Of a DNA stretch of 64,000 bases, positions 33,975-40,380 are shown piece by piece. This stretch comes from Phycisphaerales bacterium (lineage in GTDB: Bacteria; Planctomycetota; Phycisphaerae; Tepidisphaerales; Tepidisphaeraceae). The stretch spans positions 1-64,000 of the forward strand of contig JAQGHM010000104.1 in the NCBI GenBank assembly GCA_028291615.1. Direction: 5' to 3'. Numbering within the stretch: position 1 is the stretch's first letter; each line of letters starts with the position of its first letter. The translations under genes were made by a program, and so were the position numbers. The notes beneath the pieces were generated by a model, which did no database searches, was not told the DNA's origin, and was given only the letters and a program-made list of their open reading frames with translations.

Positions 33975-34122
33975 GGCGGAGGTCCTTTTTGAAACGGAGC
34001 GAACCGTTGTCAGGAGCTTAGAGGGCAGTGGCGGTTACGACAATAATACCGATGGGTGATACGGGCGTTGGACATTCACCGACGTCTGCGACGCCGTTTT
34101 TGTTCATTTATCTCAATTTCGC

Positions 34123-34198
34123 ATCAAATATGATACAATTTTATTGAAAATAATATCATGTATGATATCGTTTTAATCGATATGGCATCATATATGAT
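34123..34198. promoter_or_regulatory. three palindromic operators at 32-bp intervals
   Basis: ATCAAATATGAT (34123-34134), ATCATGTATGAT (34155-34166) and ATCATATATGAT (34187-34198) start exactly 32 bp apart, about three helical turns. The first has one arm mismatch, the second a central mismatch, and the third is a perfect palindrome. Each ends in TATGAT, which could also be a -10 box. They lie in an unusually A/T-rich stretch at the start of the XRE antitoxin gene and are the likely autorepression sites. Confidence 0.75.
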
Positions 34199-34577
34199 CA
34201 ATACAATCTTTCGAAACCTCGAACGCCGGCGTCGCGACTTGGGCATGACTTATGGCGCGGTTGCGGTGCGCAGCGGTGTCTCGCTGCCGACGGTACAGCG
34301 GATCTTGTCGCGCGATCACCCGAATCCCACGTTTGCGAATGTGAACGCGATTGCCCGAGCATTGGACATGACGTTGGGCTCGGAGCCCCAGTCGCCGGCT
34401 GACATATTACGTGAACGCCAAGCCACCAAACGCGCTCGGGAACTGGTCGGTTTGGTACAGGCGACCTCCGCCCTCGAAGGACAAGCCCTGGACGCGGACT
34501 CGGTCGAGCGAATGGTCCGTCAAACCATTCACGAATTGCTTGCCGGCTCACCGAGAAAGCTCTGGGCCGAAGAATGA
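34158..34577 (+). CDS. XRE-family antitoxin with Fic-inhibitory motif
   Basis: 139 residues from ATG 34158, or 127 from 34194 (MINTIFRNLERRRRDLG). The second is more likely, since the first 12 codons are operator DNA. No ribosome site is visible, so a leaderless start is possible. Residues about 17-75 form an XRE helix-turn-helix (GAVAVRSGVSLPTVQRIL). The C-terminal part contains TSALEG (residues 103-108), matching the [S/T]xxxE[G/N] motif by which class I antitoxins block the Fic active site. The stop overlaps the fic start (ATGA). It is probably both autorepressor and inhibitor. Confidence 0.8.
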   Translation: MYDIVLIDMASYMINTIFRNLERRRRDLGMTYGAVAVRSGVSLPTVQRILSRDHPNPTFANVNAIARALDMTLGSEPQSPADILRERQATKRARELVGLVQATSALEGQALDADSVERMVRQTIHELLAGSPRKLWAEE

Positions 34578-35170
34578 ACGGCTGGCCCACGGTCCCTGGA
34601 GAAACGCCCATCGACGACGTCTCGGGGCTGAAGATCCGAAGCGTCACCAACCGCGCGGAATTGAACCAAGCCGAAGCCGAGAACATTCGCCGCGCGGTCG
34701 TGAAGTATTTGCTCGCAAAACCCAATCCGCGCTCCGCCCGTTTCGATCTCGCCTGGTCCAAGCGCCTGCACCGCGAAATGTTCGGCAGAGTCTGGCGGTG
34801 GGCGGGCGAGATCCGCCGTACCAACCTCAACATCGGCATCGAACATTACCAGGTAGAAACCAGCCTCCAGGTGCTGTTCGATGATCTGAGGTTTTGGGGT
34901 CAACACGCGACCGTTGGCATCCTCGAACAAACGGTCCTGCTACATCACCGGGCGGTTCAGATTCATCCGTTTCTCAACGGCAATGGCCGCTGGGCCCGCA
35001 TGCTCGCCAACGTTTGGTGCAAGCTCCGGGATGGCCGCGTGATCAATTGGCCCGAAGACGTGATCGGAACTCAAAGTTCCATTCGTGCGGACTATCTAAC
35101 CGCAATCAAAGCGGCCGACCGGGGTGACTTCGCGGCGCTGACCGAGATGCACAATAGATACATGAAATGA
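34574..35170 (+). CDS. Fic/DOC family toxin, mobile mystery protein B type
   Basis: 198 residues. The Fic motif reads HPFLNGNGRWAR: both arginines and the histidine are present, but the acidic residue of HxFx(D/E)GNGR is asparagine, a change that may weaken metal binding. The N-terminal part (WPTVPGETPIDDVSGLKIRSVTNRAELNQAEAENI) and size match the family often called mobile mystery protein B. Active Fic proteins transfer AMP to target hydroxyls. It overlaps the antitoxin by 4 bp. Its stop lies 6 bp from that of the response regulator on the opposite strand. Confidence 0.85.
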   Translation: MNGWPTVPGETPIDDVSGLKIRSVTNRAELNQAEAENIRRAVVKYLLAKPNPRSARFDLAWSKRLHREMFGRVWRWAGEIRRTNLNIGIEHYQVETSLQVLFDDLRFWGQHATVGILEQTVLLHHRAVQIHPFLNGNGRWARMLANVWCKLRDGRVINWPEDVIGTQSSIRADYLTAIKAADRGDFAALTEMHNRYMK

Positions 35171-38166: not shown

Positions 38167-40380
38167 ATGCGCAGACGTTATTCCCGCTCAAATCGCCGCA
38201 GTGGTTCTAGGGTCGTATCAGCCGGATCGGGGCTGGAGCTGTTTGAACCGCGCGTGCTGTTTGCCGCGCCGACCTTTGCGACGTTGCCGGCGGTGACATT
38301 GCTGGGGGGGGCGCCGTTGCAGATTCCGATCAATGGGTCGGATGCAGATGGGGATACGCTGACCTACACCGTGTCCACCTCCGCGCCGCAGATCACGGCA
38401 ACCTTCTCCCCGGCCACGAATCGAAGCTTGAAGATCTCGGTGGCGCATACGTCATCAGGCGCCAGTGATCCGGCGTTTACCGGCGATATGGTGCTCAGCC
38501 TGTTCGAAGATCGCGCGCCCAGGACGACGGCGCGGATCATTCAGCTTGCTCAGTCGGGGTTCTACAACAACCTGACCTTCCATCGCGTGACCATGGATTC
38601 CACCCTTTCGGTCATCCAAGGCGGCGATCCCCTGGGAAACGGCACCGGCGGCTCGGGAGTTCAGTTTGATGATGAGTTCGACCCCAACCTGCAGTTCACC
38701 GGCCCGGGTTTGCTGGCGATGGCGAAGAGTTATGACGATACCAATGACTCGCAGTTCTTCATCAACGCTGGGACACCTCGGTTTCTCGATTTTAATCATA
38801 CGATATTCGGGCAACTGGTCGAAGGGGATACGGTCCGCCAAAAGATCAACAACGTACCCCGTGACGCCAGTGATAAGCCGCTAGGCGCGGTAAAGATGAC
38901 GTCGGTCAGCGTTTTTTCGGACAAGCAGAACCGGGTGTTGTCGTTGTCGGTACCGCCAAACTTGGCCGGCGGCGCGACTGTAACGGTGACGGTGAACGAC
39001 GGTCATGGCGGGACCTACTCGCAAACGTTTAACGTGACCGTTACGCCGGATACGTTTAACGATCCGCCCTACCTGCTGCCGATCCCCGACATCATCACCC
39101 GCGCCAATACGCCCGTCTCGCTGCAACTGAATGCCGTTGACGTGGAGGGCGATGGCATTGCGTATCTGAAGGGGACCGACCCGGCCAACGTGGCGGTCGC
39201 GCTCGATCCCAACACGGGCTACACGACAATCACGCCTTCGAATAACGTCGCTGGCGTTTTCCCGCTGCTGGTCGGGGTTATCTATAACCAGGCCCCTGAC
39301 ACGAGCGTGATCGATACGCAATACACGCCGATCTTTATTTCGCCGGCAGCGCCTTCGAGCATCGATCTCGTCAGCGCTTCGGATACGGGGGTGAGCGACA
39401 CGGATAATGTCACGCGGCTTAACAATTCAACGGCGGCTGGGAAGCTTTCGTTCCAGGTCAATGGGGTTGTGGCCGGCGCGGTGGTGCAGCTTTTCGACGG
39501 CGCGACATCGCTGGGGCAGGCGACCGTACCGACCGGCGCGACGAGCGTGACGATCACCACGAACGGCGCGCTGACGCTTTCGAATGGGCAGCACAATCTG
39601 ACGGCGACGCAGACGCTGCAAAACCTCGCGTGGGTGGTGGGCAATCGGTCGGGAACCGTCACGCTGGCGAGCCTTGTATCGGCGAGCCAGGCGATCACGA
39701 TTGACACGGTTGCGCCGACCTCGACCGCGCCGGCGGCGTTCAGTTATCTGACGGCGACGCAGAATTTGGTTTACGCATTTTCAGAAAGCGTGGCGGCGAG
39801 CCTGGTTTCGGGCGATTTGTCGCTGAAGAATCTCACGACCAACAGCTTCATTCCGGCTGCGTCGATCCTGGTGACTTACTCGGCGGCGAACAACAAGGCG
39901 ACGCTGACGTTCCCGGGGTATGCGGGCGGTGCGCTGCCGGATGGGAATTACCACGCGGTATTGACCGGTGCGGCGGTGACGGACGTGGCGGGAAATCCGC
40001 TGCCCGCGGACGTGTCGCTGGATTTCTTTGTCCTGGCGGGCGATACGAACCACAATCGCACGGTCGATTTCACCGACCTCGCCGCGATGGCGCAGAATTA
40101 CAACACGTCGGGCAAGACGTTCGTGCAGGGGGACTTCAATTACGACGGCAGCGTGGATTTTCTGGATCTGGCCCTGCTGGCCCAGCGATATAACACGACG
40201 CTGGCGGTGCCCGCAGCGCCGGTCGTCGAGGCAGCGCCGGTGCTGGCGGCGGCGGTTGCGGCCCCGACCGTGGAAGACAAAACGAAGCGTGATAAGCCGG
40301 TCTTCTCGACGGTTCCGGTGGTCAAGCCCATCGCGCCCACAGCAAGACCCAAGCCGGCGGTGCGACCGCCGCATCGGTAA
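38167..40380 (+). CDS. LEPR-XLL exported protein with cyclophilin and dockerin-like domains
   Basis: 737 residues. The N-terminus has a basic leader and LELFEPRVLFAA, a form of the LEPR-XLL export signal of planctomycetes. Residues about 100-255 are a cyclophilin-type peptidyl-prolyl isomerase (NLTFHRV, IQGGDPLGNGTGGSG, GLLAMAKSYDDTNDSQFFI, HTIFGQLVEG). The catalytic Arg, Gln and Phe are kept, while the tryptophan position reads F or L. Cadherin/Ig-like domains follow, then two dockerin-like EF-hand repeats (GDTNHNRTVDFTDLAAMAQ; GDFNYDGSVDFLDLALLAQ) and a Pro/Ala/Lys tail. Confidence 0.82.
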   Translation: MRRRYSRSNRRSGSRVVSAGSGLELFEPRVLFAAPTFATLPAVTLLGGAPLQIPINGSDADGDTLTYTVSTSAPQITATFSPATNRSLKISVAHTSSGASDPAFTGDMVLSLFEDRAPRTTARIIQLAQSGFYNNLTFHRVTMDSTLSVIQGGDPLGNGTGGSGVQFDDEFDPNLQFTGPGLLAMAKSYDDTNDSQFFINAGTPRFLDFNHTIFGQLVEGDTVRQKINNVPRDASDKPLGAVKMTSVSVFSDKQNRVLSLSVPPNLAGGATVTVTVNDGHGGTYSQTFNVTVTPDTFNDPPYLLPIPDIITRANTPVSLQLNAVDVEGDGIAYLKGTDPANVAVALDPNTGYTTITPSNNVAGVFPLLVGVIYNQAPDTSVIDTQYTPIFISPAAPSSIDLVSASDTGVSDTDNVTRLNNSTAAGKLSFQVNGVVAGAVVQLFDGATSLGQATVPTGATSVTITTNGALTLSNGQHNLTATQTLQNLAWVVGNRSGTVTLASLVSASQAITIDTVAPTSTAPAAFSYLTATQNLVYAFSESVAASLVSGDLSLKNLTTNSFIPAASILVTYSAANNKATLTFPGYAGGALPDGNYHAVLTGAAVTDVAGNPLPADVSLDFFVLAGDTNHNRTVDFTDLAAMAQNYNTSGKTFVQGDFNYDGSVDFLDLALLAQRYNTTLAVPAAPVVEAAPVLAAAVAAPTVEDKTKRDKPVFSTVPVVKPIAPTARPKPAVRPPHR

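Follow-up and report, generated by a model that had tools for sequence, protein, structure and literature searches.

The gene pair and its operator-like palindromes

The window analysed here is a 64,000-nucleotide stretch of a Phycisphaerales bacterium (contig JAQGHM010000104.1, positions 1 to 64,000). It carries a gene pair in which a helix-turn-helix (HTH) protein, called A here, is encoded directly upstream of a Fic-domain protein, called B. The pair is likely to be a two-gene class I Fic toxin–antitoxin-type module of the mobile mystery family, in which A would be a class I antitoxin furnished with a repressor domain. The genes are arranged as follows.

34158–34577, forward strand: gene A, putative HTH repressor/antitoxin, mobile mystery protein A-like; open reading frame (ORF) of 139 aa
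34574–35170, forward strand: gene B, Fic-domain protein, mobile mystery protein B; 198 aa, identified by TIGR02613 and by a fold match to VbhT
34574–34577, forward strand: ATGA, the 4-bp overlap of A and B

The initial annotation had described an XRE-type HTH gene upstream of fic, carrying TSALEG at residues 103–108 and overlapping fic by 4 bp. The former was confirmed by the ORFs and the Pfam HTH matches, and the latter by the ATGA. Position 34123, the left edge given in the initial annotation, is the left end of the first palindrome listed below and not the start of a gene. There are three candidate starts of A, at 34158, 34182 and 34194. The last one (MINTIF...) is probably the start in use and is favoured because of the alignment with relatives. 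Residues are numbered here from the ATG at 34158; TSALEG would become residues 91–96 from the ATG at 34194. B scored 159.9 bits against TIGR02613, whose curated cut-off is 124.4, and is thus mobile mystery protein B. The gene order, with A directly upstream of the TIGR02613 gene, is general in the relatives. No Rfam match was found in the A/B region. Four features lie around the start of A.

34123–34134, no strand assigned: operator-like palindrome O1, ATCAAATATGAT; 32 bp start to start from O2
34155–34166, no strand assigned: operator-like palindrome O2, ATCATGTATGAT; overlaps the earliest candidate ATG of A; 32 bp from O3
34187–34198, no strand assigned: operator-like palindrome O3, ATCATATATGAT; overlaps the ATG at 34194 that is favoured as the start of A
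34144–34171, forward strand: weak sigma-70-like promoter match, TTGAAA-16-TATCGT, a consensus match only; overlaps O2

The three palindromes are near-identical and stand exactly 32 bp apart, which is about three helical turns, and the ATG at 34158 is inside O2. They account for six of the seven pattern matches in the 64 kb, and seven matches were reached by none of 100 window shuffles. The extended palindrome TATCATATATGATA was searched near A genes with a threshold of 12 or more of 14. It was seen 14 times against 0.6 expected from dinucleotide shuffles of the same regions, and three of the 14 are at the window locus. It thus also recurs outside the phylum of the window, for instance close to A in loci of Sulfurovum, Sulfuricurvum and Sulfurospirillaceae, often in pairs 30–33 bp apart. 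With a looser threshold, the palindrome density near A was about 20 times that of the rest of the loci. A search for palindromes of any kind in the regions upstream of A gave no more than a mild signal, with 17 of 88 reaching p≤0.05. Being spaced and conserved, the palindromes support binding by the HTH of A as predicted operators, most clearly in the shorter branch of the family to which the window belongs. The G+C content is 0.53 at 34000–34499 compared with 0.60–0.68 around it, and this dip is mainly the AT-rich operator region.

The C-terminal tail of protein A

Three features of A were located in the reading frame.

34218–34376, forward strand: HTH domain (residues 21–73); Pfam HTH_31 (1.1e-7) and HTH_3 (3.2e-7), the structural model and Foldseek matches to XRE repressors
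34464–34481, forward strand: TSALEG, at the end of the long helix 81–106, with Glu107 invariant in the family; conservation and model
34563–34565, forward strand: Trp136 of the near-invariant C-terminal LW

The model of A, built with 51 sequences (predicted local distance difference test (pLDDT) score of 94.5), consists of an HTH bundle, a long helix (81–106) ending at Leu106/Glu107, and two further helices (113–129 and 132–136). Its confident Foldseek matches were HTH repressor domains of the XRE type, and none had an E value below 0.001. TSALEG is the sole [S/T]xxxE[G/N] motif in the protein. The motif arises in 9% of shuffles of A and is weak evidence on its own. Its significance comes from conservation across relatives and not from the motif itself. 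B homologues were gathered without reference to A, and the upstream ORFs were scored by a hidden Markov model of A with the motif columns masked. This model was built from partners first chosen by a motif-like pattern and is not fully independent, and it recovered one partner missed by the pattern. Glu occupied position 107 in all of the 90 partners found in this way.

By sequence weight, Glu107 is conserved at 100%, Leu106 and Gln109 at 95% each, and Trp136 at 99%. Position 103 is Thr in 54%, Ser in 26%, His in 11% and Asn in 7%. The strict class I motif is satisfied in 13 of 89 relatives. In these alignments the Glu of the mobile mystery A family is kept, whereas the [S/T] and [G/N] positions on either side are relaxed; the branch of the window (TSALEGQ) is near canonical. 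This differs from the initial annotation in that the Glu alone is invariant. Trp136 and Gln109, the latter two residues past the motif Glu, are about as conserved as Glu107 and neither belongs to the class I Fic motif. They might mediate dimerisation or an additional contact with B.

The A-tail profile was also compared with known inhibitory helices. It aligns in register with DUF4172, TSALEGQALDADSV on SSAIEGEMLNPEEV (TSALEGQ on SSAIEGE), and the score was reached by none of 100 column shuffles. In CbFic2, a class II protein, the inhibitory helix TSAIEG is part of DUF4172 (PMC10628234). The A tail of one relative matches Pfam VbhA weakly at the motif (E value of 0.08), and Pfam scans of 35 A tails gave scattered weak matches only. 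All of these matches are below standard cut-offs. Therefore, a match in register is reported and no homology to VbhA or DUF4172 is claimed. The argument for an inhibitory tail would be made up of this register, the invariant Glu and the gene context.

The same evidence bears on another explanation, namely that repression is the only function of A, which would bind B at another site, and that TSALEG matches by chance. The frequency of the motif in shuffled sequences is in its favour. However, the Glu is present in every partner found without the motif, it is in register with a known inhibitory helix, and it always adjoins a Fic protein without an inhibitory motif of its own. We regard a chance match as highly improbable.

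The Fic protein B and the proposed mechanism

The Fic motif of B departs from the usual form at one residue.

34964–34999, forward strand: Fic motif HPFLNGNGRWAR (residues 131–142), with Asn135 in place of Asp/Glu

The model of B (pLDDT 93) has a Fic fold. Its best match is VbhT from the complex with VbhA, and EcFicT and Fic-1, from their antitoxin complexes, are also high among the matches. The catalytic His, the GNG and both Arg residues of the Fic motif are invariant in the B family. The inhibitory motif [S/T]xx[I/L/M]E[G/N] is absent from B and its relatives (0 of 89), and no helix precedes alpha1 (27–46) in the model, as expected of class I. Against DOC_P1, B scored 17.9 bits, below the cut-off of 38.65.

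From these properties we infer the following mechanism. A would have an XRE HTH at its N-terminus and a Fic inhibitory helix at its C-terminus. In the A–B complex, the end of the helix 81–106 would lie over the ATP pocket of B, and Glu107 would pair with Arg142, the second Arg of the Fic motif, so that ATP could not bind productively. A, alone or together with B, would bind the three 32-bp-spaced palindromes at its own start through the HTH and switch the operon off. When the level of A drops, both brakes would be lost; B would become free and the operon derepressed. The initial annotation had proposed that a single protein could act both as repressor of the operon and as plug of the Fic active site. 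This dual function is probably correct, as four indirect lines point to it (the invariant Glu, the register, the motif-free B and the spaced operators). It describes a known, named gene family as a whole rather than one odd locus.

Several results weigh against this mechanism. A reached 40.6 bits against TIGR02612 (mobile mystery protein A), below the cut-off of 122.6, with the alignment running to the end of the profile (150/150); it is therefore filed as a divergent relative and not as a strict member. Position 108 is variable (Ala, Asp, Asn, Gly, Ser and others), so that the [G/N] after the Glu is unconserved. The similarity of the A tail to DUF4172 is short, with an hhalign probability of 10%, and sequence searches of the PDB with the A tail, both single and as a profile, gave nothing relevant. 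Coevolution analysis failed to single out the proposed A–B interface. The top pairs of the A-tail columns join residues 99–104 with the Fic-motif helix of B, and the HTH columns score equally high. With within-clade pairing shuffles the top pair was Thr103–Met143, Met143 being next to Arg142, and this signal came largely from one clade with His103/Ile143. Finally, the pattern of AMPylating Fic proteins, HxFx(D/E)GNGRxxR, is broken in B by the Asn at its fifth position.

This Asn is a property of the family. HPFxNGNGRxxR was found in all mobile mystery B members checked, with one exception that has Gly (L055). Part of the B sample was fetched by a pattern requiring the Asn; it is also present in the loci from the family search (L002–L007) and from tblastn (L032 and L033). 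In Fic-1, Glu139, the equivalent of this Asn, is specifically needed for AMPylation (PMC13327609). For some members of the Doc clade, it has been suggested that Asn in place of the metal-binding Asp renders the protein inactive (PMC4454073). Therefore, AMPylation by B is not assured. Both AMPylation and the word toxin are assumptions, in a family that has Asn for the metal-binding Asp/Glu.

These observations could mean that B is not an AMPylating toxin. It would then work with a different donor, catalyse a different reaction or have no activity, and the pair would serve in regulation instead of forming a toxin–antitoxin system. The near-universal Asn, the suggested inactivation in the Doc clade and the requirement of Fic-1 for the acid speak for it. 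On the other hand, the catalytic His, the GNG and both Arg residues are invariant, Asn is able to ligate metal, and a conserved inhibitory Glu facing B suggests an activity worth inhibiting. This explanation is considered unlikely. In another one, to which we give about equally little credit, Glu107 makes B within the A–B complex a demodifying enzyme, a deAMPylase, the part played for Fic-1 by Glu28 of AntF. This would add a catalytic role to the repressor and inhibitor functions of A. The replacement by Asn of the very acid reported to be required for AMPylation by Fic-1 fits this idea, and so does a Glu that stays invariant while the flanks of the motif drift. However, inhibition alone also predicts an invariant Glu. 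A combined version appears more doubtful still. In it, A would have all three roles, as repressor, plug and catalytic subunit, while B, which does not have the acid required for AMPylation, would not AMPylate but remove AMP with the Glu of A or perform other nucleotide chemistry. If true, a widespread pair regarded as a Fic toxin system would be a demodifying or otherwise new enzyme. The inhibited class I module is the favoured interpretation. The order and overlap of the genes, the HTH, the invariant Glu, the Fic fold, the lack of an inhibitory motif in B and the conserved operator repeats are observed, whereas the contact between Glu107 and Arg142, the repression, the toxicity of B and the reaction catalysed by B are all parts that we infer.

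Distribution of the family and comparison with known systems

The A/B pair is annotated under the mobile mystery names on plasmids, including the Ti plasmid pTiC58 and rhizobial plasmids, and relatives of B were counted in 262 plasmid records. Of 392 genomes sampled from the phylum of the window, 7 carry B above the cut-off. Genome loci of the pair were found in Planctomycetota, Campylobacterota, Alpha- and Gammaproteobacteria, Spirochaetes, Chlamydiae, Elusimicrobia, Omnitrophota and others. The relatives were collected by a scan of genome contigs with the B alignment as query; the scan with the single A sequence as query found no relative. In the search for an empty site, the nearest relative of the response regulator downstream of the pair sat in different surroundings.

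At one locus (L007, contig G164:C368), a class II Fic protein with DUF4172 is encoded about 2 kb downstream of the A/B pair on the same strand, so that two kinds of Fic control stand side by side. On the Sulfurimonas plasmid pSULFM1 (L033, 685–2222), a hipBA-type pair adjoins the A/B pair in divergent orientation. Elsewhere in the window, 38167–40380 encodes a large protein that looks exported and contains a segment of cyclophilin-type peptidyl-prolyl isomerase as well as dockerin-like repeats close to the C-terminus, as judged from the translation only.

No mechanism for mobile mystery A/B is given in the literature searched, and Engel et al. 2012, which is reportedly the paper defining the Fic classes, lies outside that search. 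Within the same bounds, what appears new is that a family of HTH antitoxins to which no mechanism had been assigned carries the inhibitory Glu known from Fic control. This suggests a job for a mystery pair of many phyla and of Ti and rhizobial plasmids. It would also extend class I Fic control to antitoxins that double as repressors, with operon control and enzyme inhibition tied to one protein. The chemistry of the family is a separate question, prompted by the Asn that its Fic motifs share.

The pair was compared with four kinds of system. The mobile mystery A/B proteins (NCBIfam TIGR02612/TIGR02613, for example on pTiC58) share the gene order, the overlap and the LExQ...LW tail of A. In contrast to the TIGR02612 proteins, A of the window represents a shorter branch, which differs in its HTH region and is found in planctomycetes and Campylobacterota. 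The class I pairs (VbhTA, EcFicTA and Fic-1–AntF) likewise place the inhibitory motif on a partner protein, whose gene usually lies directly before that of the Fic protein, and the Fic protein has no motif of its own, as in B; they also supply the top fold matches of the B model. However, the known class I antitoxins are small and have no HTH, whereas in A the motif comes after the HTH domain, and the Fic motif of B has Asn for Asp/Glu. In type II systems, antitoxins commonly have two functions, for example in Phd-Doc. Phd differs from A in that it does not belong to the XRE proteins and in that it completes the fold of Doc, and Doc is a family distinct from B. A near-identical motif, TSAIEG, is found in CbFic2 of Coxiella, a class II protein with DUF4172 that has an HTH in the same system and whose DNA binding affects (de)AMPylation (PMC10628234). 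In CbFic2, the inhibitory helix, the Fic domain and the HTH are in a single chain, whereas in the A/B pair the putative helix and the HTH are found together in a separate partner.
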